Shown here: piece by piece, positions 1-27,903 of the stretch | Layout: each line of letters opens with the position of its first letter | Position numbering within the stretch: the stretch's first letter is position 1 | Virus record (IMG/VR): IMGVR_UViG_3300013285_000039 | Span: 1 to 34,975 of that record | Direction: 5' to 3' (one strand) | DNA from: a virus | Length of the DNA: 34,975 nucleotides | The notes under the pieces: model-generated | The model's database searches: none | Told to the model about the DNA's origin: nothing | Seen by the model: the letters and a program-made list of their open reading frames with translations, nothing else | Made by a program: the position numbers and the translations under genes

Positions 1-1050
1 ATCTCCTGCGGCGACTGTGCTAGCCGTTGTACCAACCGGGAGCACAGCAGCTCCACCCAGTCCAAGGTTTGAGCGAGCTGTTGTCGCAGATGCGAGATCA
101 GACAGGTTAGACGACTTTTGAGCTGCGCCTGAAATCCGGGTGTCGTCTCCTGCTGCAACCGTATTTGCAATAGTACCTACAGGCAAAACAGCTGCTCCTC
201 CGAGACCTAGTTGAGTACGTAGATTCGGAGCATCAGCAGCTACTCGCGCAGCAAGCGTTGAAGGGGTTTGAAGGACACCAGCAATAACTTCAACCAAACC
301 GGTTCCTGAAGGAGCAGGCCCTGCCGGGCCTGTAGCTCCCGTAGCTCCCGTAGCTCCCGTCGCACCCGTCGCACCCGTCGCACCCGTCGAGCCGGAAGCA
401 CCGGAAGCGCCAGTCGCGCCTTGGGAGCCTGTGGCGCCCGTCGCACCCTTGATGTTCGCCACCACTGAGTAGGTACCAGACGCCTTCTGGTACACATTGC
501 CCGTAGCATCATCCAGGTAGTAGTCCCCATTCGCGCCCAACCCAGAAGACGGCACTCCAAATCCATCTCGCCACACGGAGCCTGCAGAGCCAGCGGATCC
601 TGCCGCTCCCGCAGCCCCCGTCGGCCCCTTAATGTTGCACTTCAGCGAGTATGTTCCGGACGCTCTCTGGTAGACGTCTCCAGTGGCGTGATCGAGGTAG
701 TAGTCACTGTCTATCCCGATCGAGTTCGATGGAACTCCAGTTCCGTCCCGCCATGTTGCTCCAGGCGTACCGGCAGCGCCGGTTGCTCCAGTCGGCCCAG
801 TGGATCCAGCGAGGCCGGTTGGCCCCTGGGATCCGGTGGCGCCAGTTGGCCCCGTGGGACCTTGCGGCCCTTGGGCGCCGGCAGCTCCAGTGACCCCAGG
901 AACCCCTTGGGGGCCCTGGGGGCCGGTATCACCCTTTGCTCCATCAACTCCTGGAGCGCCTTGAGGGCCGCGGGCACCGACGGTGGCTGTGACCTCAATG
1001 GGAACCTTGACGAAGTTGCGGTCGACGACCTCGATAATTTGGGTGCTCAT
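1..1050 (-). CDS. Collagen-like tail fibre protein (3' end cut by window edge)
   Basis: The frame starting ATG at 1050 is open to the window edge, giving at least 350 residues without a stop. Residues about 25-75 are Gly-X-Y collagen-like triplets. Two copies of a module follow, each with a WRDG-G-VPS segment, then DYYLD-ATG-VYQ-ASGTYS, then another Gly-X-Y stretch. After that come two copies of [13 protein letters not shown] followed by TVAAGD, a repeat typical of phage tail fibres. It is likely a trimeric receptor-binding or side fibre of the virion. Its start overlaps the upstream gene by ATGA, which implies translational coupling. It is the last readable gene of the leftward series, so a virion protein sits on the same strand as replication genes. 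The C-terminus, where receptor specificity usually lies, is outside the window. Confidence 0.85.
332..385. repeat. Six tandem 9-bp units in the collagen-like gene
   Basis: Three exact copies of GTAGCTCCC (332-358) are followed by three exact copies of GTCGCACCC (359-385). Read on the minus strand they encode Gly-Ala-Thr triplets. The unit is a multiple of three, so slippage would add or remove triplets without breaking the frame and could alter fibre shaft length. Confidence 0.85.
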
Positions 1051-5840: not shown

Positions 5841-6820
5841 AGACGAACAACCTCCTCTCCTGGTCCAAACCACTCCCCAGCCCGGGACCATCGGACTGCT
5901 GGGGCATTGCCATCCACAACGCGGATCGTTGGCAACCCAAGTTTGTGGATGATTCCTTGAACTGTGGATTCTTCAGGTTGGCCGCTTACCAGCTGGTAGA
6001 TTTCCTCCATCACATTGGTGAGGTACATTTCTCGAGCCCGATCGTGCTTTGCGTAGAACCGCTTCGAGTTCCACAGATGGTAAGCCTTCTTGCTTGGAAC
6101 CATGTGGTCCTTGCCGATGTCGAGGTCGCCAATGCACCGGACTGAGCAGTTCATTGACTGAGCTACAACAGCGAGCAGGTACTGCTCAGCGAAAACCATC
6201 TCAGCGACCGGCGTTGCGGAACCAGACCCACCAACAGACACCTTGTAGGAGTCCGGAATGCCACCGTTCGGCCTCGAGCAGATCTGCATGAGCTTGATCG
6301 CCAAATTGGTGTACTGATCGCGCAGGTCCTCGTTGTAGAACGCGGCAACGGCCACATTGATTGGGGCCAGGCGCTGCCACCCGTTGGCACCGAGCAGTTG
6401 GCCCGCTGTTTCCCACATCGGGTTCCATCCGTAGGTTGCCCAACTGATTGGCTCATAGTGGAGCCCGTGGAGATCAATGAGCGGCGAAGGCTTTCGGTAG
6501 AGCACGGCATCCAGATCAACGCTTATGACGTGCCCACTCATGCGAGACAGCGCGACCAACTTTCCGGCCGCCCAGAAGGTGAACTTGTCGATCCCAGGCG
6601 GAATCTCGATCGGCATAACGTCGTCGTAGAGCTTGTTTAACCCAACAGCGCACGCGAAGTGTAGGCCACCAGTGTCGACTGCAAGCGTCATTGGGCCGAT
6701 GTTCGCTTTGTAGGTAAGCACGGACAGCAACATGGTTGCGAGCTCAACCTCGTCCATGCACCTTCCAAGCGTGATGGTGTGCAACCCCATTGGGGGTGTG
6801 AAATATCTCCTCAGGTTCAT
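5837..6820 (-). CDS. Glycosyltransferase-like protein (GT-A fold)
   Basis: 327 residues from ATG at 6820, which overlaps the HU-like stop by ATGA; the longer frame to 7027 is the reverse shadow of neighbouring sequence. A strand-helix start (HTITLGRCMDEVELATMLLS), VDTGGLHFACAVGLNKLYDD, FWAAGKLVALSRM and the metal-binding-type motif VDLDAVLY (Asp102, Asp104) follow the order seen in GT-A nucleotide-sugar transferases and in DUF6734-type proteins. The substrate is unknown. Placed among early genes, it could modify host surface sugars, phage DNA or a phage protein; the sequence does not decide. A second, unrelated-looking transferase is at 27896-28474. Confidence 0.55.
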   Translation of the reverse strand: MNLRRYFTPPMGLHTITLGRCMDEVELATMLLSVLTYKANIGPMTLAVDTGGLHFACAVGLNKLYDDVMPIEIPPGIDKFTFWAAGKLVALSRMSGHVISVDLDAVLYRKPSPLIDLHGLHYEPISWATYGWNPMWETAGQLLGANGWQRLAPINVAVAAFYNEDLRDQYTNLAIKLMQICSRPNGGIPDSYKVSVGGSGSATPVAEMVFAEQYLLAVVAQSMNCSVRCIGDLDIGKDHMVPSKKAYHLWNSKRFYAKHDRAREMYLTNVMEEIYQLVSGQPEESTVQGIIHKLGLPTIRVVDGNAPAVRWSRAGEWFGPGEEVVRL

Positions 6821-7125
6821 AACTTGAATGCGTTTGGATTCTCTAAAGCAAGTCGGACTAGGTGTGGTTTCATTTCTTTCGATGGCTTGAACTTCAGAAC
6901 GAATTGGCCTGGCTGATTTGACTTGAACACTCCAACGCCAGTGCGTCCTTTCCGGAGTTTGCCATGAATCGTACCAACCCCCTGAAGCGTCACGCGCTCG
7001 CCGGCAGCGATCTTTGAAAAGATCCACATCGTGTATGCACGGAGAACCTTCTTAGCCTCGTTGCGGCGGTCCTTTTTCCCGAGCCCGGTGTACTCAACCG
7101 AGAAGTGGGTGTGGGTGTTTCTCAT
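6817..7125 (-). CDS. HU/IHF-like DNA-binding protein
   Basis: 102 residues from ATG at 7125, coupled to the upstream gene by ATGA. The pattern VLRAYTMWIFSKIAAGERVTL, then QGVGTIHGKLRKGRTGVGVF, then FVLKFKPSKEMKPHLVRL matches HU/IHF: a helical dimer region, the G-x-G-T-F-like turn, a beta arm and the F-K-x-S-x-x-L-K end. The usual RNPQTG-like tip is changed. The family bends DNA and helps origin unwinding and integrase complexes, both relevant in this phage. Confidence 0.7.
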   Translation of the reverse strand: MRNTHTHFSVEYTGLGKKDRRNEAKKVLRAYTMWIFSKIAAGERVTLQGVGTIHGKLRKGRTGVGVFKSNQPGQFVLKFKPSKEMKPHLVRLALENPNAFKL

Positions 7126-7340
7126 CCGATGCCTGCTTCCTTTAGGGCCTTCTCGGCGTTTGTTGATCCTGGTTGGCACTCAGTGCATAACGGCAACCCA
7201 ACGGATAGGTCCTGGTATTTGTGTCCCCCATCGTTCTCGGGATTTACTTCAGACGACAACAAACCGCAGATGTGGCATCTGCCTTCCAGGTTTCGCTTGG
7301 CTCGAATGACGTATCGGATGTCTGTGCGGTGTTTGGCCAT
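7122..7340 (-). CDS. Small zinc-finger-like protein
   Basis: 72 residues. The cysteine pairs CHICG (residues 22-26) and CTEC (52-55) are about 26 residues apart, suggesting one zinc-binding knuckle pair. A His-rich loop (DGGHKYQDL) lies between them. The layout recalls small HNH-like or zinc-ribbon phage proteins, but no HNH catalytic set is visible. It starts 5 bp after the helicase stop and ends in ATGA with the HU-like gene. Confidence 0.55.
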   Translation of the reverse strand: MAKHRTDIRYVIRAKRNLEGRCHICGLLSSEVNPENDGGHKYQDLSVGLPLCTECQPGSTNAEKALKEAGIG

Positions 7341-7345
7341 AGGTG

Positions 7346-8716
7346 TTAATAGACTCGTGATGCTTCTTCGAAATGAGTGTGCTTCGGCGTGAAGACGAGC
7401 CGAACATCAACCCCAGCTGGTCCGTTGCGCTGCTTCGCTAGGTAGGCGTTGACGTTGGTTGTCGCGCCGTCCTCGGGTTGCTCCTTGGCTTTGTAGAGGA
7501 AGAAGATTGCATCTCCATCCTGCTCGATCTGACCGGACTCCCGGAGGTCCGACAGCCTCGGCTTCCGATTCTTGTCCTTGTCGAGCTCACGGTTCAGCTG
7601 AGCCAACACAACCACGGGAATCTCCAGATCCCTGGCAAGCGACTTGAGATCTCGGCTAATCTCGTCCACGGCCTCGCGTCGATCCACGCCGCGACGTGAC
7701 CCAATGAGCTGCAGGTAGTCGATGAAGAGGATCTTAATTCCATGCTTCTTCTTCCACCTTCTGGAAATCGCCTTGATCTCAGCGACAGTGATTCCCGACT
7801 TGTCGTTGATATAAAGAGGCCACTTAGCAATCGTGACAGACGCCGCGGTGAAAGCCTTCCAGTCGCGCTCAACCCAGGTGTCTGGGTTCATTGTGTCAAC
7901 ACGAGCCTTGCATGAGCATAGGCGCTCAATGAGCTCTTCGTCTGGCATCTCAAGAGAGAAGATCCCAACCGGAGACCCGTTGCTCACGATGTAGTCGCAA
8001 ATGTTCATCGCGAGGGCTGTCTTACCAACCGACGGGCGTGCCGCGATGACGATCAGATTCTTCGGCTTGAATCCTCGGGTAAGCCTGTCGATTCCAACAA
8101 TCCCAGTACGAATCCCTTTGTCGGTTCCCTTCGCTCGCTTCTCCAGGTTGTCGATGACGCCGCGGACCATTTCATTCGGGGTTCTCTCCTTCTGGGTGCC
8201 CACCAACTCGCGCACCTTGAGAACCCGAACTTCAGCCTCGTCGATCAACTCGGCGATGTTCTCATTGTCGCCTTTGAGAGCGTCGATAGTTTCACCACAA
8301 GCCCTGAGCATCCCGCGGGCCATGAACTTCTCGGTCGCGATCCCAACGTAGTACATCAGGTTCGCCGAGCTTGGCACGGAGTCCATCAAGCTGCTCAGGT
8401 ATGGGAGTCCGCCAATGCTTTCGAGCTGGTTGGCGTCCTTGAGGTGTTGCTGGACGGTGATGAGGTCCAGCGGGAGCATCGCTGCATGCATCGCTAAGAA
8501 GTGCTCGTAGAGGAGCTGGTGCCTTAGATCGTAGAACACTTGGGCGCCAGCAGGCATCGCTTCGACGCATTGATCGATCGATTCACCGGGAGTGATTAAG
8601 ATGCACCCAAGGATCCCCTGCTCCGCCTCAAGGCTGTGTGGAGGAAGGCTGCCGTTGAGCGGGGCGTCGTCCTGGAGGGCGTCGGCGTAGCGGCGGGCGC
8701 GGGGCGGAACACTCAT
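7346..8716 (-). CDS. dnaB: Replicative DNA helicase, DnaB family
   Basis: 456 residues, the usual DnaB length. The N-terminal domain has PPHSLEAEQGILGCIL (residues 25-40) and GGLPYLSSL (102-110). The RecA-like motor has Walker A ARPSVGKT (226-233), FSLEMPDEELIERL, Walker B ILFIDYLQL (329-337), a VVVLAQLNREL sensor and SDLRESGQIEQDGD. This is a complete hexameric 5'-3' helicase that unwinds the fork. Its ATG overlaps the initiator-like gene stop by 4 bp, so helicase and its probable loader or initiator are made together. Confidence 0.95.
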   Translation of the reverse strand: MSVPPRARRYADALQDDAPLNGSLPPHSLEAEQGILGCILITPGESIDQCVEAMPAGAQVFYDLRHQLLYEHFLAMHAAMLPLDLITVQQHLKDANQLESIGGLPYLSSLMDSVPSSANLMYYVGIATEKFMARGMLRACGETIDALKGDNENIAELIDEAEVRVLKVRELVGTQKERTPNEMVRGVIDNLEKRAKGTDKGIRTGIVGIDRLTRGFKPKNLIVIAARPSVGKTALAMNICDYIVSNGSPVGIFSLEMPDEELIERLCSCKARVDTMNPDTWVERDWKAFTAASVTIAKWPLYINDKSGITVAEIKAISRRWKKKHGIKILFIDYLQLIGSRRGVDRREAVDEISRDLKSLARDLEIPVVVLAQLNRELDKDKNRKPRLSDLRESGQIEQDGDAIFFLYKAKEQPEDGATTNVNAYLAKQRNGPAGVDVRLVFTPKHTHFEEASRVY

Positions 8717-9612
8717 GACTGTTGCCCTTTCAACTGAGCTAGTAGGGCTCGCTTCGCTCGTAGGTCAGCGATCTGCTCTGGAGTGGTCTCTCCGTGGAAG
8801 TACGAGATCGATTCTGGGTTAGCTGGGTGGGACTCGATAGCCTCCTCAAGCTCCCGGATCTGAACGTGACGTGGAACGTGCCGTCCCAGTTGCACTTCGG
8901 AGCCTCCAGATTCACTCACTGATACCCCCATGGCGCGGTCGATCTCACCGTTCCAGTTGTTGAGCAGGGTGAGAACATCCCGACGAAGGAACTGATCCCC
9001 AGATCGGTACCTAGCCTCGAGGGCTTGGATTTGATCCTCGGGAGTTTTGAGCTTAAAGACCACCTTGAGTGCTTTGAGCTCCTTTTCGCTCCAAGCGGTA
9101 TCCGGACGCCTTCTGAGCATTGCCCCAACCCGAAGTCTCAAGGCATCAAGATCCAGCCTTACCACCCCCTCAGCCGCTTCAGCGGCGGGGCTCTCGAGCC
9201 CTCCCTGTTCCTTTCCCTGATCCCTGATCCCTGATCCCTGATCAGGCGCGAGTCCTTCGCGAGTATTCGCGAGACTCTCGCGAATAAAGTAATCCTTTAA
9301 TTTAGAAGCACTTGGGTGGTCAACCCTCTGATGCTTCTTCCAATTCGCTATCAAGCCAATCTTCCCCTGATTTGGGTGTTCCCCGAGCTCTATCCACCCC
9401 ACTTCGGACAACCTCTCGAGGTCTCGCGAGATGCTCGCGAGATTGTCGCGAAATGGAGCGCATGACCCACGAATGATCGCCTCATCAGCGCGGAAGTAGC
9501 CCTCGTCGTCGGCGCTACTCAGAAGAGCCAAGGCCAGGAGCTGGGTCTCAGCCGGCAATCTCGCCATGATTGGGTGGGACCAAAACTCCGGTTTAATGGT
9601 GCGGATTCTCAT
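8713..9612 (-). CDS. Replication initiator-like protein
   Basis: 299 residues from ATG at 9612; the frame extends to 9792 but the family start MRIRTIKPEFW is unmistakable. Residues 1-90 (FWSHPIMARLPAETQLLALALLSSADDEGYF, then LSEVGWIEL) form a winged-helix-like domain found in phage replication proteins of the MRxRTIKPEFF type. The middle is low-complexity (DQGSGIRDQGKEQ) and the C-terminal part is helical (ELKALKVVF, LLNNWNG). It probably binds the origin and recruits DnaB, whose gene overlaps by 4 bp, as in lambda O-type systems. Its own gene contains phased repeats that look like the origin (see 9215-9451). Confidence 0.7.
   Translation of the reverse strand: MRIRTIKPEFWSHPIMARLPAETQLLALALLSSADDEGYFRADEAIIRGSCAPFRDNLASISRDLERLSEVGWIELGEHPNQGKIGLIANWKKHQRVDHPSASKLKDYFIRESLANTREGLAPDQGSGIRDQGKEQGGLESPAAEAAEGVVRLDLDALRLRVGAMLRRRPDTAWSEKELKALKVVFKLKTPEDQIQALEARYRSGDQFLRRDVLTLLNNWNGEIDRAMGVSVSESGGSEVQLGRHVPRHVQIRELEEAIESHPANPESISYFHGETTPEQIADLRAKRALLAQLKGQQS
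9215..9451. other. Candidate replication origin (iterons inside initiator gene)
   Basis: Seven CGCGA motifs occur in two clusters: 9247, 9258, 9268 and 9279, then 9425, 9436 and 9447. Spacing is 10-11 bp, about one helical turn. Four tandem CCCTGAT heptamers fill 9215-9242, and an AT-rich stretch (9283-9308) lies between the clusters. The motif falls in different reading frames of the host gene (as CGC-GAG, C-GCG-A and TCG-CGA), so the repetition acts on DNA rather than protein. Iterons beside an AT-rich segment inside the initiator gene are the layout of lambda-type origins. Confidence 0.55.
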
Positions 9613-14078: not shown

Positions 14079-15221
14079 GTGAACACCTACAAGACCACCA
14101 AGAGGGGAAAGCAGATCTGGATTGCTGACCTCGGGAGGGTTGGTGGCAAGCGGAAGCGCATCCAGTGCGGCTCCCGCCGGGAAGCTGAGCTCGCCGTCGA
14201 GAATGCCGGGATCGAACAGAGACTGTCCGGTGAGCTCTGGGTTGGACTCTCGGCGCCGGAGCGTGTTGAGGTTGCGGCAATCCTTCAGGAAATGGGCCGG
14301 CATGGCGTCAGTCTCTCCACTGTCTGGCGAACCTACCTCGACGCCCAGAAAGGCCCGCCACGGGTCACTATGACTCTGGCGGAGGCTATCAAGGAGACGA
14401 TCTCTGTTAAGACGGCCGCCCGGCGCCGCCCCCGGTATGTAGAGGGTCTCCAAGACTACCTCAACCTGTTCGCCCGCGGGAGGGAAGAGATGGGGATCCA
14501 CCGCATTACTCCGGCAACGATCGACCAGTGGTTTGCCGGCAGGAGCGAGGCGCCACACACCAGGTCATCCAACACGGGCCGACTCGCGTCAATGTTCGCC
14601 CTAGCCGCCCGTCGAGGGTGGATCTCCGACAACCCTATAGACAGACTAGAGCGTGTCCATGTAGAGACCAAATCCCCGGCGGTGCTGTCCTCATCCCAGG
14701 CCAAGAGGATCCTCGCATTCACTCTGGAGAGGTACCCCAAGTGCTGTGTTCACCTCGTGCTCGCCCTGTTTGCCGGCATCCGACCCGAGGAGTTGCTGGC
14801 TATCCAGTGGGACTGCATTCGACTCCAGGACGGTACCGTCGAAATCGGCGCGGCTGCCTCGAAGGTTCGACGGCGGAGAGTGGTGCAGTTGGAGCCCGCT
14901 GCGGTGAAATGGCTGGAGCTCGCGAAATCTCAGAAGGCCGATCTTCCACTCACCCCAGGGCGGGCTCGCGTGTTCATCCGGAAGCTGCGTGGCGTCCTTG
15001 GATTTCGGAAATGGCCCCAAGACATCCTCCGCCATACCGCGGCGTCCTACTTGGTCGCCAAACGGAAAGACCTGCCAGCGGTGGCGTACAGCCTCGGGAA
15101 TTCACCTGGGGTACTACTCAGGTCCTACCACAACTTGGTCTCCTCCCAGGAGGCTGAACGGTTCTGGGGGCTGCTCCCTGATTCAGTGGGTGTGGACAGC
15201 GGAGACCGCGGGGCCACCTGA
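14079..15221 (+). CDS. int: Tyrosine recombinase (phage integrase)
   Basis: 380 residues, GTG start at 14079. An N-terminal arm-binding-like segment (residues 1-35) is followed by a core-binding SAM-like domain (about 98-195) and a catalytic domain with Arg235 (AGIRPEEL), Lys262, Arg318 (DILRHTAASY) and Tyr350 (LLRSYHNLV). The usual histidine three before Arg318 is Asp315, and the usual G-H-S histidine is Asn341 (LGNSP); such variants occur in integrases of Verrucomicrobiota-type elements. It should insert the phage at the tRNA-Ala core just upstream. It ends convergently, overlapping the terminase gene by 39 bp. Confidence 0.92.
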   Translation: MNTYKTTKRGKQIWIADLGRVGGKRKRIQCGSRREAELAVENAGIEQRLSGELWVGLSAPERVEVAAILQEMGRHGVSLSTVWRTYLDAQKGPPRVTMTLAEAIKETISVKTAARRRPRYVEGLQDYLNLFARGREEMGIHRITPATIDQWFAGRSEAPHTRSSNTGRLASMFALAARRGWISDNPIDRLERVHVETKSPAVLSSSQAKRILAFTLERYPKCCVHLVLALFAGIRPEELLAIQWDCIRLQDGTVEIGAAASKVRRRRVVQLEPAAVKWLELAKSQKADLPLTPGRARVFIRKLRGVLGFRKWPQDILRHTAASYLVAKRKDLPAVAYSLGNSPGVLLRSYHNLVSSQEAERFWGLLPDSVGVDSGDRGAT

Positions 15222-18029
15222 GACTGTGCCGCCGAGCTCGTACTTCAGGATCGGGTAGGACAATCCATCGAAGACGTGGATGTGCCCGGCGACAGTTTTC
15301 TTCGGCCGCAGTGGCTTCGCCTTGTCCTCCTCGAGCATGTTCAGCATCTCTTTAACATGGTGGCACTGGTCCGAGATTAGGAGCCTGTCCTGCTGTAGCA
15401 ATCCCTGAGTGAGACGCACTCGAGTCTCAACCGACCCATCCCCCTTCGGGCAACCAACCATGGTCATTGGAGGTAGGTTATTGATCAAAATTGCGCGGTT
15501 GAACTCAGACTGAAACTCCCAGGCATCGTACGAACCACCAGAACCGGGGCGCCACTGGTTAACCGCTGAGTCGTCAGCGATGTGCTCCCAGGCCATCTTT
15601 TGGCCAATAAATTTGTTCCACATCAGGATCTTCTCGACGATCTCGATGGCCATCACCTTGTAGAGGATTTTCTCGTTCAAGTGGCACACCTCGTCGAACA
15701 CCATCCACACAGCGCCGTCTTTTGTTGGAACCAACTGCTCAAAGATCGCTGTCGAGTACACCTGGCCAAGGTCGTACCCAATCGTGCATGGCAGCCCCGG
15801 CTTCGGCCTCAGCCCGGTGCCGAGCCTGGCATTCCCAACAACGTGACGTTGCGGGATGAATCTAGCCCGAAACAGAGCGTCACCAGTCGGCCTCTCAACC
15901 CACTTACCCTCGATCAACCGAGCCCGCTCAATCGGATCGTCTCGGACTGCCCGCTCAAGATTCTCCAGGTACGACCGCATCTCCGGCCGGTGGGAGTTCT
16001 CTCGGAACGGCACATGGTAGACCGAGAATGCTGGATCTCGAACGCCGGTCTCATGGTTCACCGGCTCCTCGAAGAAAGCCTTGTAAACCCAGTTTGACGG
16101 ACCCTTTGGATTGCAAGTTCCAACGTACTGTTGAGGCCCTTGGATGTGCCGGCGCCGGTTCAGCTGGGCCGACACTAAGCGTAGATACTCACGGCCCTCG
16201 CAGTCAGTGAGCTCGTCAGCGAGCGCGTACGAAGGGTGGATGCCTTTAATGCGGCTGGCGATTGCTTCGGCGTACGGAATGGCGATCTGAAGAACAGTTG
16301 ACCAGCCGCCATGGCGGTTCGCCACCTTCATCACTCGATCCTTAGTGTTTGGATCCAGCTTGGAAGGAATCCACTCCAGGCCAATTCCTTCCTCCCACGC
16401 CGGCAATACCAGCGTCTCTAGGTCATGGATGACGCCAAATTTTCCAGTACGAATCGAAGGAGTGATAATCAACCCGAGCGCATCCCAGTTTTCGTAGCAG
16501 TGCCGAACCATCTTGTGCTCGGCGCCAACGGACTTTCCTGAGTTGTGGTTAAGAGTTCCTGAGGCGATAAAGCTGTGCGGTCCTGGAACGCGCAGGTCAG
16601 CAAGGGATGCGGTTGAGCTAGAGGTCTTGATGACCTCTAGCCAGTTTTCTGATGCGAGGAATTGGTCAAGCTCTTGGCATTGGCCGTAAATAGCTTTGAA
16701 CTCCTCAACCTTTGGTTTTTGCGGTATTGACCCAAACGAATGGATTTTCCGGTGTTTATCGTGCCACTCCCGATTTCTGTGCTCCAACCCATCGTGACTC
16801 TTCCTAATTCCAGATCGACTAGCAAAGGCGATCCCATTCATTACCGAACGAATCGGATCTGGGTATCCATACCTATTTGAATTCCACCCATTTGGAGACA
16901 GTCTGCTTACTTTTGGATCGCGGATACGATCCAGCTTCCTAGCAATCTCAAACCCAACTACTTTACCAAACTCATGGGCGTGCTTACCCATGATTGAAAT
17001 CGTCCACGTCGGATTTCCACTGGCCGACTTTTTGGGTCTCCTGGAAGACAAGATTCCCATTACCAACAGAATGTCTTGAACATCCCTTCCGAGCCCCTCA
17101 GAGGTGGTGCAAAATGAAACGGTTCCAGATTTTTCGACAGTGCCATCCGTGTCGAATAATCCACGAAGGAATGCTGTTGTGCATAATTTTCCTGAAGCCA
17201 CTACTTTTCCAGGGATTCGCTTCGAATTGGATAATCCAACCAACCCGAGGTTCTGGAGCACCTTTGCGATGTTACCTCTGGGAAGGACGGAGTATTGGCA
17301 GTGCTTTGATTGGCTTGGAGACTGGTTTAGGAAGCAACTGATTTTCCTAAGTCCAGCATCAACCCGCCGGATGCATTCCGGATCCATGTTCGTGAACCCA
17401 ATGGACCTCGCGTCTCCAGAATCGAAATTCAGACTACCATCACCACACAGGGCGCCAAGTGAGTAGCACAGATCCAAATCCATCAAACTCGGCTGATCCC
17501 ATGACGGATGGGGGACTATGGGAGTCCAGAATCTTCGACCCAAATGCATCAATGCATTCAGCTCATCGAACTTGACCCAACGAAACGTGAAACTCCCGTC
17601 CAGACGTGATTCGCATGCCCAAATTGGGTGGCGCGGGGAACCGGTAATTTCTGATCCATTCTCAAGATCCACACGAACAGCCTCAGTTCCAGGCTCAATC
17701 CAATAAGCGTCAGCAGTGGCTAGCTCATTTTGGTTAGCCCAAACCCGTTGGGAGATTTGGTTGAATCCGTAGGTTGCTCCCGGCGGAGAAAGATCCCCAA
17801 GCCTGGATACTCCTTGGTCAGTGCAGATCCACGTATCCAGCGTCCGGCACCCCTTCTCCCCGTATGCCAAAATAAACGGAGCGGGATCATCGAAGATCTT
17901 TTTCTGTGTCGGATTCAGGTCCGGAGACCACGGTTTTTCATCAGGCTTACGAGGGCTATGGTTTGGCTCGAAGTCAGCCTCAATGGCTGCCAGTGCCTCG
18001 ATCTCTTGTTCAGTTGGAAGTGACGGCAT
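15183..18029 (-). CDS. terL: Terminase large subunit containing an intein
   Basis: 948 residues, 512 after removal of the 436-residue intein. Extein 1 (residues 1-60) ends FILAYGEKG and extein 2 begins SGKSVGAEHK; joined they give the Walker A motif GEKGSGKS. Walker B-like YALADELTDCEG and a coupling-like VGTCNPKGPSNW follow. The C-terminal nuclease domain starts IGYDLGQVYST, with later acidic residues (HIADDSAVNQW, HVFDGLSYP). The enzyme pumps DNA into the prohead and cuts concatemers. It is on the minus strand, divergent from portal and convergent with integrase. No small subunit was firmly identified. Confidence 0.93.
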   Translation of the reverse strand: MPSLPTEQEIEALAAIEADFEPNHSPRKPDEKPWSPDLNPTQKKIFDDPAPFILAYGEKGCRTLDTWICTDQGVSRLGDLSPPGATYGFNQISQRVWANQNELATADAYWIEPGTEAVRVDLENGSEITGSPRHPIWACESRLDGSFTFRWVKFDELNALMHLGRRFWTPIVPHPSWDQPSLMDLDLCYSLGALCGDGSLNFDSGDARSIGFTNMDPECIRRVDAGLRKISCFLNQSPSQSKHCQYSVLPRGNIAKVLQNLGLVGLSNSKRIPGKVVASGKLCTTAFLRGLFDTDGTVEKSGTVSFCTTSEGLGRDVQDILLVMGILSSRRPKKSASGNPTWTISIMGKHAHEFGKVVGFEIARKLDRIRDPKVSRLSPNGWNSNRYGYPDPIRSVMNGIAFASRSGIRKSHDGLEHRNREWHDKHRKIHSFGSIPQKPKVEEFKAIYGQCQELDQFLASENWLEVIKTSSSTASLADLRVPGPHSFIASGTLNHNSGKSVGAEHKMVRHCYENWDALGLIITPSIRTGKFGVIHDLETLVLPAWEEGIGLEWIPSKLDPNTKDRVMKVANRHGGWSTVLQIAIPYAEAIASRIKGIHPSYALADELTDCEGREYLRLVSAQLNRRRHIQGPQQYVGTCNPKGPSNWVYKAFFEEPVNHETGVRDPAFSVYHVPFRENSHRPEMRSYLENLERAVRDDPIERARLIEGKWVERPTGDALFRARFIPQRHVVGNARLGTGLRPKPGLPCTIGYDLGQVYSTAIFEQLVPTKDGAVWMVFDEVCHLNEKILYKVMAIEIVEKILMWNKFIGQKMAWEHIADDSAVNQWRPGSGGSYDAWEFQSEFNRAILINNLPPMTMVGCPKGDGSVETRVRLTQGLLQQDRLLISDQCHHVKEMLNMLEEDKAKPLRPKKTVAGHIHVFDGLSYPILKYELGGTVSGGPAVSAVHTH
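16542..17849 (-). other. Intein with LAGLIDADG homing endonuclease domain
   Basis: 436 residues, Cys61 to Asn496 of the terminase precursor. Splicing motifs: N-terminal Cys (CRTLDTWICTDQG), block B ITGSPRHPIW, block F/G PHSFIASGTLNHN, with Ser as the first residue of extein 2. The centre holds two LAGLIDADG-type helices, LGALCGDGSL and LRGLFDTDGTV, both keeping the catalytic aspartate. Everything needed for splicing and homing seems intact. It sits between the glycine and serine of the terminase P-loop, so unspliced protein could not bind ATP. A hand count of two sampled lines gives 45% GC here (17101-17160) against 53% in the extein (15661-15720), which hints at separate origin. Confidence 0.92.
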
Positions 18030-25885: not shown

Positions 25886-26260
25886 ATGGCCAAATACTTT
25901 CGGCTCGTAGCCAGCATTGGAACTCCCACGTTTCGCCCCATCAACCACTACATGGGTGTGTGGTACGGAGTTGCTGAGGTGAATGACGATGTTGAGATTG
26001 CTCGCCTCACTGCGGCTGGATGCCAGGAGATCACTGAGGCTGAGTACGAGGATCAGCTGGCAAAAAAAAAGGCACTGGACTCATCGACGGGATTGGATTT
26101 TCGGCCACTCCACAACGGAGCTGCCCAACCTGCGGCCCCAAAGGCTCCAGAGCCCCCTAAGGACATTAAGGCTGAGGACCTACGCTCCGCAGAGACCATC
26201 CCCGCGCCGGCTACCCCGCCGGTCCCCTCACTGCCTGAGCCCAAGAAGGCGTCGAAATGA
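25886..26260 (+). CDS. Small Pro-rich protein, unknown function
   Basis: 124 residues. Residues 1-60 look folded (YFRLVASIGTPTFRPINHYMGVWYGVAEV, ITEAEYEDQL). The rest is Pro/Ala/Glu-rich and probably disordered. No family recognised. A run of nine A at 26062-26070 contains an in-frame A-AAA-AAG heptamer. It is coupled by ATGA to the connector gene, so a head-completion role is possible. Confidence 0.55.
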   Translation: MAKYFRLVASIGTPTFRPINHYMGVWYGVAEVNDDVEIARLTAAGCQEITEAEYEDQLAKKKALDSSTGLDFRPLHNGAAQPAAPKAPEPPKDIKAEDLRSAETIPAPATPPVPSLPEPKKASK

Positions 26261-27903
26261 CCTGGAAGGACTTCAAGAAGTCCGTCGATCAGCTACTGCT
26301 GATCGATCGGCGCAGGCTCGGAGCCCAGGAGTTTATCGACCAACAGATCCTTGTTGCCGTCGGCGACATCCAGCGCCTGATCGACTATTACCGCCGCGGC
26401 ATCACCTCCACCTTCGAGCACGACGATGTTGCGCGAGACGGATTCGCCTCCAAGCTGGAACTCCCGGCCGGAGCCAATCTTCAGCAGATCTTCCACGTCA
26501 GGTCTGGCAACAGCATCGCCAAGCGGCCCCTCTACGAGTACCCGTTCACCAACAGGTTTGACCTTGTGGCTGGCGTGGTTGGTTTAGACTCCAGGACCAA
26601 CTCGTTCTTCCGGTACTCCATCGACTATCGAGATGGAGCCAAGAGCATGTGGGTGTACCCAATGATCACCGACGGGTACTCGATTCAAGTCGTCTGGGAT
26701 GCGATCTCCGGCCGCAATGATTTCGACTACAAGGACACTGACGAGGTTCCGTTCGATCGGCCCTTCCAGAATTTGGTATTCCTGTACGTCAAGATGATGC
26801 TCGCCCGGGACGTCAACGGGAACGCGGTGGCATTCAAGAGCTACTCCGACAGTTACAGACTAGCAATCGCCAGCCTCTACTCAGAGGTGCAGGATCGCCT
26901 GCGACTAAAACGCGCAGAGGCCGAAGCTAGCTGCAGACCTTGCGCCTCCCCTGCCTCTGAGGTGTTTGGGGCCACTCAACTGATCGGATCCGCGTGCGAG
27001 TCTCCAGTCATGGGAGCCATCACAACATCGGGCTGCACCATCCCAAAGAAGCCAGAGATAGAGTGGGTGATGTTCGGTGACAGTGGCGACACCACAACCA
27101 TCCAGGACACGATCGCCGTGGCCACCGGCGTTAAGGCGATCAACCCCGACTTCATTGTCCACCTTGGTGATGCAGCCTACGGAACAGGTGGTCAGATCGG
27201 CGGCGCGATGCCACTGCTGCGAGACCTCTTCGAGAAGCACTACCACAACTTCCTGCAGCAGGGCCGGATGTACCTAGCGTTCGGAAACCACGACCTGGAG
27301 TCTTATTACGGGGACAATCTATTCTCCGTGGTTCCATCCATTTGTGGGCTCGTCGGGAATGGTCGCCCCAACCACAAGCTTTGGTACGAGTTCGCTAAAG
27401 GTGATGTGCGGTTTTTCGTACTGAACAGCGGATCTTCAGATTCCGACTCCAACCTGTTCTTGGACGAGCAGAAGGACTGGTTGCGCCACCGGGTCTGCGC
27501 CGCCAAGGAGAAGTGGCTCGTGGCGGTACACCACCGACCGCAGTACACCTCGGACGCGAACTACCACCCTGGCAGCTCGGTAATGCGGACGCTCAACCTG
27601 CACACGCTTGGAATCGACCTAGTGGTGAGTGCCCATGGCCACAACTACGAGCGCGTTCTCGACCCGTATGGACTCATGCACGTTGTGTGCGGCCTTGGAG
27701 GTGCCCCGCGTCGAGCGAAGGCCGTGAGCGGCCTGCCATCTGGATCCCAGTTTTTCTACAACAGCCAGCCTGGATTCCTGCATTTCACCGCGTCGGAGGA
27801 TGCGATGCAGTTCACGCTGATGGGTGTAGACGGAAAACCAATCGACCGAGTCACTCTGGAGAAATCCACCCCACGGGTGGTTGAGTGCTACGGATATGCC
27901 TGA
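26257..27903 (+). CDS. Head-tail connector fused to metallophosphoesterase
   Basis: 548 residues. Residues 1-220 resemble phage adaptor proteins: a helical start (FKKSVDQLLLIDRRRLGAQEF), QQILVAVGDIQRLIDYYRRG, beta strands, then long helices ending SEVQDRLRLKRAEAEA. Residues about 265-548 are a calcineurin-like phosphoesterase of the purple-acid-phosphatase type: FGDSGDT (Asp275), HLGDAAY (304-305), FGNHDLE (343-346), VHHRP (425-426), SAHGHNYER (His460, His462). All metal ligands seem present. The join (221-264) is Cys/Ser/Pro-rich. The enzyme domain would sit at the virion neck. Overlaps the next gene by 8 bp. Confidence 0.75.
   Translation: MTWKDFKKSVDQLLLIDRRRLGAQEFIDQQILVAVGDIQRLIDYYRRGITSTFEHDDVARDGFASKLELPAGANLQQIFHVRSGNSIAKRPLYEYPFTNRFDLVAGVVGLDSRTNSFFRYSIDYRDGAKSMWVYPMITDGYSIQVVWDAISGRNDFDYKDTDEVPFDRPFQNLVFLYVKMMLARDVNGNAVAFKSYSDSYRLAIASLYSEVQDRLRLKRAEAEASCRPCASPASEVFGATQLIGSACESPVMGAITTSGCTIPKKPEIEWVMFGDSGDTTTIQDTIAVATGVKAINPDFIVHLGDAAYGTGGQIGGAMPLLRDLFEKHYHNFLQQGRMYLAFGNHDLESYYGDNLFSVVPSICGLVGNGRPNHKLWYEFAKGDVRFFVLNSGSSDSDSNLFLDEQKDWLRHRVCAAKEKWLVAVHHRPQYTSDANYHPGSSVMRTLNLHTLGIDLVVSAHGHNYERVLDPYGLMHVVCGLGGAPRRAKAVSGLPSGSQFFYNSQPGFLHFTASEDAMQFTLMGVDGKPIDRVTLEKSTPRVVECYGYA

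Follow-up and report, generated by a model that had tools for sequence, protein, structure and literature searches.

Two phased repeat arrays within a phage initiator gene as a putative origin of replication

The gene for the replication initiation protein of the phage examined here carries two arrays of short repeats, A and B, whose copies recur about every 11 bp, and sequence comparisons indicate that both are very probably iterons of the encoded initiator that jointly form the phage replication origin, in the manner of the lambda ori. Relatives keep arrays at two corresponding locations within the gene, and the repeated word changes together with the protein, which supports an earlier proposal, made from the DNA letters, of an initiator-binding array located inside the initiator gene.

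An initiator gene with two repeat arrays

The DNA analyzed, referred to below as the window, is a linear virus record of 34,975 bases. Residues 1-116 of the initiator match the phage replication initiation proteins of phrog_1408 in a profile search (E 1.2e-23), and no Pfam family matches the protein at E <= 0.001. It consists of a winged-helix N-terminal domain, a repeat-rich linker, and a C-terminal domain; tblastn matches are confined to residues 148-247, a region that is kept in phages having different N-terminal domains. Downstream of the initiator gene, and on the same strand, lie the gene of a DnaB-like helicase and, further on, that of an HU-like protein, which the sequence-only reading had named and which is real. 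An integrase gene is also present in the window. The features relevant to the argument are the following:

6817-7179, minus strand: HU-like DNA-binding protein, same gene run (PF00216, E 1e-6; phrog_379)
7346-8716, minus strand: DnaB-like replicative helicase, adjoining gene (phrog_19, E 1.2e-93; PF03796, E 1.4e-79)
8713-9612, minus strand: replication initiation protein gene, 299 aa (profile matches phrog_1408, phrog_2149, phrog_16167)
8899-9153, minus strand: C-terminal domain of the initiator, residues 154-238 (tblastn and translations)
9199-9242, minus strand: purine-rich tract, four copies of ATCAGGG and then AAAGGAACAGGGAGGG, fitting a G-quadruplex motif on the coding strand
9246-9283, minus strand: array B, TCGCGA at 9278-9283, 9267-9272 and 9257-9262
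9282-9321, no strand: 40 bp of lowest nearest-neighbour stability in the gene, candidate unwinding element
9319-9321, minus strand: Asp98 codon, between the arrays and outside both, covarying with the iteron word
9403-9441, minus strand: codons for residues 58-70, the predicted recognition helix (H3), which overlap array A (AlphaFold2 secondary structure)
9414-9451, minus strand: array A, TCGCGA at 9446-9451, 9435-9440 and 9424-9429

Elsewhere in the window, the terminase large-subunit frame (15183-18029, minus strand, 948 aa) includes at residues 285-350 a LAGLIDADG domain (PF14528), whose flanking residues resemble those of an intein inserted into the ATP-binding loop. A virion-region protein (26257-27903, plus strand) contains a calcineurin-like phosphoesterase domain (PF00149, residues 285-464), and a collagen-like repeat protein (1-1050, minus strand, PF01391) is cut off by the window end.

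The repeats were initially described as seven CGCGA motifs in two clusters, accompanied by four tandem CCCTGAT heptamers, and all are present: CGCGA occurs at 9247, 9258, 9268 and 9279 (spacings of 11, 10 and 11 bp) and again at 9425, 9436 and 9447 (11 and 11 bp), being translated in three ways, as CGC-GAN, N-GCG-A and TCG-CGA, and the heptamers start at 9215, 9222, 9229 and 9236. In addition to the copies listed above, array A includes a fourth, degenerate one (TCGAGA, 9414-9419) and array B ends in a partial one (TCGCGC, 9246-9251), and every pair of TCGCGA words in phase within the window falls inside the initiator gene. When synonymous codons were permuted within the gene, preserving both the protein and its codon pool, none of 20,000 permutations attained five CGCGA pairs in phase, none attained six TCGCGA words, and only 7 of 20,000 matched the seven CGCGA motifs; the count of CCCTGAT (five in the gene, four of them tandem) was matched by 214 of 20,000 and is thus only moderately unusual. 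A stricter test, which looks for one 8-mer, with one mismatch allowed and on either strand, recurring at 10-12 bp in both places, gave the window gene a score of 6, as compared to a maximum of 0 over 200 synonymous permutations. As a positive control, the same kind of test applied to lambda gene O recovered its known iterons, with 0 of 500 permutations doing as well. The arrays are therefore real and well beyond chance, in agreement with the initial view that protein constraint could not easily produce them.

The sequence-only reading had not recognized that the heptamers are part of a conserved purine tract located just after array B, which in the window runs beyond the heptamers to about 9199. 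Within the family this tract is found about 20-60 nt past the last B site, with a purine fraction of 0.76-0.83 as compared to the 0.69-0.75 expected from the protein, and in 76 of 126 genes, where the null model gives 3.3, its most purine-rich 42 nt repeat in tandem, with periods of 8 (50 genes), 7 (12), 5 (11) or other lengths (3). G3 quadruplex motifs occur in 35 of the 126 genes (11.2 under the synonymous null) and G2 motifs in 121 (94.0), the tracts of many relatives having GG runs only. The AT-rich stretch that had been noted is also real: stability in the gene is lowest over the 40-mer at 9282-9321, which starts at gene nt 292, directly 5' of array B in the coding sense. Among the 126 genes the least stable 40-mer starts at nt 240-319 in 54 and at nt 360-439 in 40. 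Over the family the AT content rises only modestly before array B (0.52-0.54 versus 0.49-0.51), and a general AT-rich element was not retained.

Conservation and replacement of the repeat word

If the arrays serve as binding sites, relatives should keep phased repeats at silent sites, and such repeats are indeed found in the same two places. Loci were first gathered as the best 80 from bacterial genomes and the best 80 from viral contigs, and three viral scans contributed a further 240 (best 80 each); after removal of 4 of the 160 that lacked an in-frame stop and 6 of the 240 that were short or open, and the collapse of near-copies, 137 and then 232 distinct genes remained from these best 80 matches per scan. 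An exact-6-mer test is passed by 38 of the 137 genes at <=3/300 permutations, a few of them being simple tandem repeats (for example L165, L189 and L192), and the two-cluster test by 55 of 137 at <=2/200. Phased cores number 235 in array A (39.1 expected) and 285 in array B (43.6 expected) over the 137 genes, as compared to 66 for a control stretch in 124 genes, and at least two phased cores are present in each of both places in 124 of the 232 relatives. Propionibacterium phage PFR1 and Mycobacterium phage RonRayGun, for instance, carry TCGCGA arrays at the same two gene places, followed by a G-rich octamer tract.

The printed arrays suggest a general iteron composed of TC, two or three bases, and GA, or else of TA...TA, with the next copy 11 bp further on. 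The TC-N-GA formula leaves 100 of the 232 relatives unclassed, some of which may have no arrays or may employ other words. Six word classes account for 126 of the 132 classed genes: TCGCGA (52), TAC(C/G)GTA-like (24), TCG(A/T)CGA (18), TCA(C/G)TGA (15), TCCAAGA/TCTTGGA (11) and TCCGGA (6); the other 6, with rare words (ACG 2, CAG 2, AT 1, CCC 1), were excluded from the covariation analysis. The 126 genes contain 652 words, as compared to an expectation of 93.6 for a fixed protein, and exact words are separated by 11 bp in 329 cases, 22 bp in 35, 10 bp in 16, 21 bp in 9, 24 and 33 bp in one case each, and in none by 9 or 12 bp. The words are spread evenly over the three reading frames (217/236/199). 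Assigning classes from cores 10-12 bp apart biases the spacings toward that range, but does not explain the preference for 11 over 12 bp, nor the even frames.

In Streptomyces relatives with longer genes (L111, L113, L119, L121, L124) phased CACTGA words are located deeper, at about nt 596-746, and these arrays may move along with an enlarged domain. Acidipropionibacterium timonense has two loci with an initiator gene (L116-L117), of equal match score and about 41 kb apart, whose TCACTGA-type array is longer than in most relatives. Finally, large Klebsiella plasmids (records H42-H53, among 16 plasmid-collection records matched in all) encode an N-terminal-domain relative that bears a DnaT-like annotation, and are possibly phage-derived replicons.

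The word is lineage-specific, and arrays A and B within one gene use the same one, which is replaced as a set in both arrays together, a trait that had also escaped the sequence-only reading. Identity between the A and B spacers is 0.507 within genes and 0.103 between genes for a set of 74, and 0.583 and 0.172, respectively, for 124 genes, where random re-pairing reached at most 0.258 (0 of 5000 as high). On a tree that covers 56 N-terminal domains and omits the columns encoded by the arrays, the words require 16 changes, where the least possible is 5 and the shuffled mean is 35.0; over 126 rows at least 18 changes are needed. The window, despite its TCGCGA word, clusters with TCGACGA and TACGGTA relatives (97/89), away from the actinobacterial TCGCGA genes, and its word has thus probably been switched separately.

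The predicted recognition helix and residue 98

The AlphaFold2 model of residues 1-124 is a confident winged helix (pLDDT 90.9), with predicted helices at residues 21-33, 44-51 and 58-70 (H3), and wing strands at 74-79 and 83-88. Structure searches with this model return generic winged helices; Foldseek hits include 4pt7, 4pql and 5kbj, which are RepA_N initiator structures, with 4pt7 at rank 4 (E 6.5e-3) and its VIA Z of 7.8 lying within the generic winged-helix band. By analogy with other proteins of this fold, H3 would be the element that reads the putative sites. The location of array A within the codons of this helix was absent from the initial description: of the 750 codon hits that array-A words make in the 126 relatives, 738 lie within residues 54-70, and H3 is a three-frame translation of the array, as in RDNLASISR in the window and DEDSSNVRRALDD in the relative L088. 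Since 11 bp span 3.67 codons, and an alpha-helical turn is nearly as long at 3.6 residues, a phased array could be written into a helix-coding stretch. We consider the chances to be about even that the initiator is self-encoding in this sense, its recognition helix being the translation, in three frames, of its own binding-site array.

Residue 98, whose codon lies outside the arrays, tracks the word in all 126 genes. It is Asp in the TCGCGA (52/52), TCGACGA (18/18) and TCCAAGA (11/11) classes, Asn in the TCACTGA (15/15) and TACGGTA (24/24) classes, and Ser (5) or Asn (1) in TCCGGA genes. On the best tree, with column 98 omitted, 12 of 12 independent pairs agree, and on well-supported branches there are only two such pairs (2/2 in agreement); the runner-up column outside the arrays, residue 96, reaches 7.9 of 12. 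Residue 98 can therefore be read as a putative specificity determinant. Residues 59, 62, 63 and 66 likewise track the word, and were set aside as evidence of recognition since the array itself encodes them.

Phages that share the C-terminal domain (residues 148-247) and have other N-termini also contain phased words, in 22 of 37 distinct genes at <=3/300 permutations, a set that includes close 'MRIRTIKPEFW' kin. Two other N-terminal types joined to this C-terminal domain likewise carry two arrays. Genes with two clusters include L048 (CGGTTG at nt 146, 169, 180 and 191; CAACCG at 371, 382, 394 and 406), L024 (TGCCAA at nt 179, 190 and 202, and at 330 and 341) and L007 (ACGCGT at nt 192, 203 and 214, and at 374 and 385). 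Pfam DUF1376 matches L024 and L038, with L048 under the curated cut-off. In a model of the DUF1376 type (pLDDT 81.8), array A of L048 (codons 57-66) spans a helix end, a loop, and a short helix, so that its coincidence with a recognition helix is only partial, and that placement was not adopted for this fold. In other initiators that share the C-terminal domain (L052, L063, L068-L072) the linkers are made of simple repeats, DREDRED, DKDKDK and SPSPSP among them.

Known origins and alternative explanations

An origin inside the initiator gene is a known principle, found in lambda O and in RepA_N plasmids, of which the two-array, self-encoding layout would be a variant. In lambda, too, origin iterons lie in the linker between the DNA-binding N-terminal and the C-terminal parts of the initiator, and a helicase-loading gene adjoins, where the window has its DnaB-like helicase gene. 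The lambda iterons occupy O nt 349-433, about the place of array B, but are 18-19 bp inverted repeats (PMC5043065) whose starts are 20-24 bp apart, whereas those of the window are 6-7 bp cores 11 bp apart. The first 300 nt of O lack all of their 7-mers, which indicates that lambda has no array A, and no Pfam link exists between the window protein and lambda O. RepA_N plasmids pSK41 and pSK1 employ a winged-helix N-terminal domain that binds Rep boxes central in rep, with the origin doubling as linker-coding DNA, and in pPR9 the N-domain and the origin have been swapped together (PMC5703833). The passages of that article that were consulted describe one central set of four boxes and no second set in recognition-helix codons; in addition, the window protein has no Pfam RepA_N domain, and its fold match is generic (for 4pt7, E 6.5e-3 at best). 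A layout of two arrays with one in recognition-helix codons was not found described in open-licence PubMed Central full text. The iterons of iteron plasmids lie outside coding sequence, are longer, and are about two DNA turns apart. Like those of the window gene, they are helically phased; in P1, F and RK2 (Rep_3; PMC5043065) the initiator binds them beside an unwinding region, and their spacing is 22 bp in pSK639 (PMC5703833). A 2020 report in mBio shows that repA and its flanks suffice for plasmids of Miko, Rachaly and Jeeves to replicate, with the origin presumed to be in or beside repA (PMC7157519); Miko RepA, the sole experimentally tested phage RepA compared, shows no family-profile match and no phased array, and these plasmids were set aside as direct support.

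Taken as an origin, the locus could operate as follows. The N-terminal winged helix would bind one 6-7 bp iteron per DNA turn in arrays A and B, and the complex may bend or wrap the roughly 150 bp between them. Such wrapping could strain the AT-rich stretch beside array B, the purine tract beyond it, or both, after which the C-terminal domain would help to load the DnaB-like helicase of the adjoining gene, perhaps with the aid of the HU-like protein.

An improbable alternative is that the arrays are an operator, where binding by the initiator would repress its own gene or set the timing of transcription, with the origin located elsewhere. Intragenic binding can block transcription, binding and initiation are inseparable on present evidence, and GC skew, a check that the sequence-only reading had put forward, displays no minimum at 9.3 kb in this linear record, a result that neither supports nor refutes an origin at the gene. 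Nevertheless, the arrays are located well within the gene and not at a promoter, in the position taken by the lambda iterons in gene O, with a helicase as the adjoining gene and a purine tract placed after array B, all of which argues against an operator. Still less probable is a role in the mRNA, where palindromic words would form hairpins that regulate translation or stability. The array-B strand of the window folds far better than shuffles (z -5.5, DNA parameters), but against the synonymous null the RNA folding z of array B averages close to zero (-0.04 in the GAC class, 0.36 in the CCG class); array A gives moderately negative values (-0.65 to -1.73), as fits palindromic words, and a strict 11-bp spacing is a property of the DNA helix.

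It is highly improbable that the repeats are a by-product of protein constraint or slippage with no function in the DNA: low-complexity linkers are common in these proteins and the heptamer count by itself is only moderately unusual, but the permutations already disfavour this explanation, the words are even over three frames at 11 bp, they occur in a folded domain as well as in the linker and are replaced as a set, and the periods of the purine tract (7, 8, 5) are not multiples of three. Short phased repeats also serve partition systems. A centromere-like parS/ParB site, dedicated to partition rather than initiation, is equally improbable even though parS repeats occur in mycobacteriophages (PMC7157519), given the integrase, which argues against a need for partition, the fact that no partition gene was named among the window genes searched, and a word that follows the initiator's own residue 98.

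If the arrays form an origin, the sequence rule predicts origins in many temperate phages and prophages, such as mycobacteriophages RonRayGun and Glaske and a Propionibacterium phage, whose initiator records have no origin annotated in the regions examined. The natural word switches, tied to residue 98 and to the recognition helix, open initiator specificity to direct tests, and could provide sets of orthogonal replicons. The gene also shows two codes that stay in register across one set of bases, and its two-array grammar is seen again with other N-terminal domains, DUF1376 among them, attached to this C-terminal domain. Should the initiator be self-encoding, site and reader would change in one stretch of DNA, and the alteration or exchange of a single gene segment could let a phage switch the specificity of its origin and so escape incompatibility.
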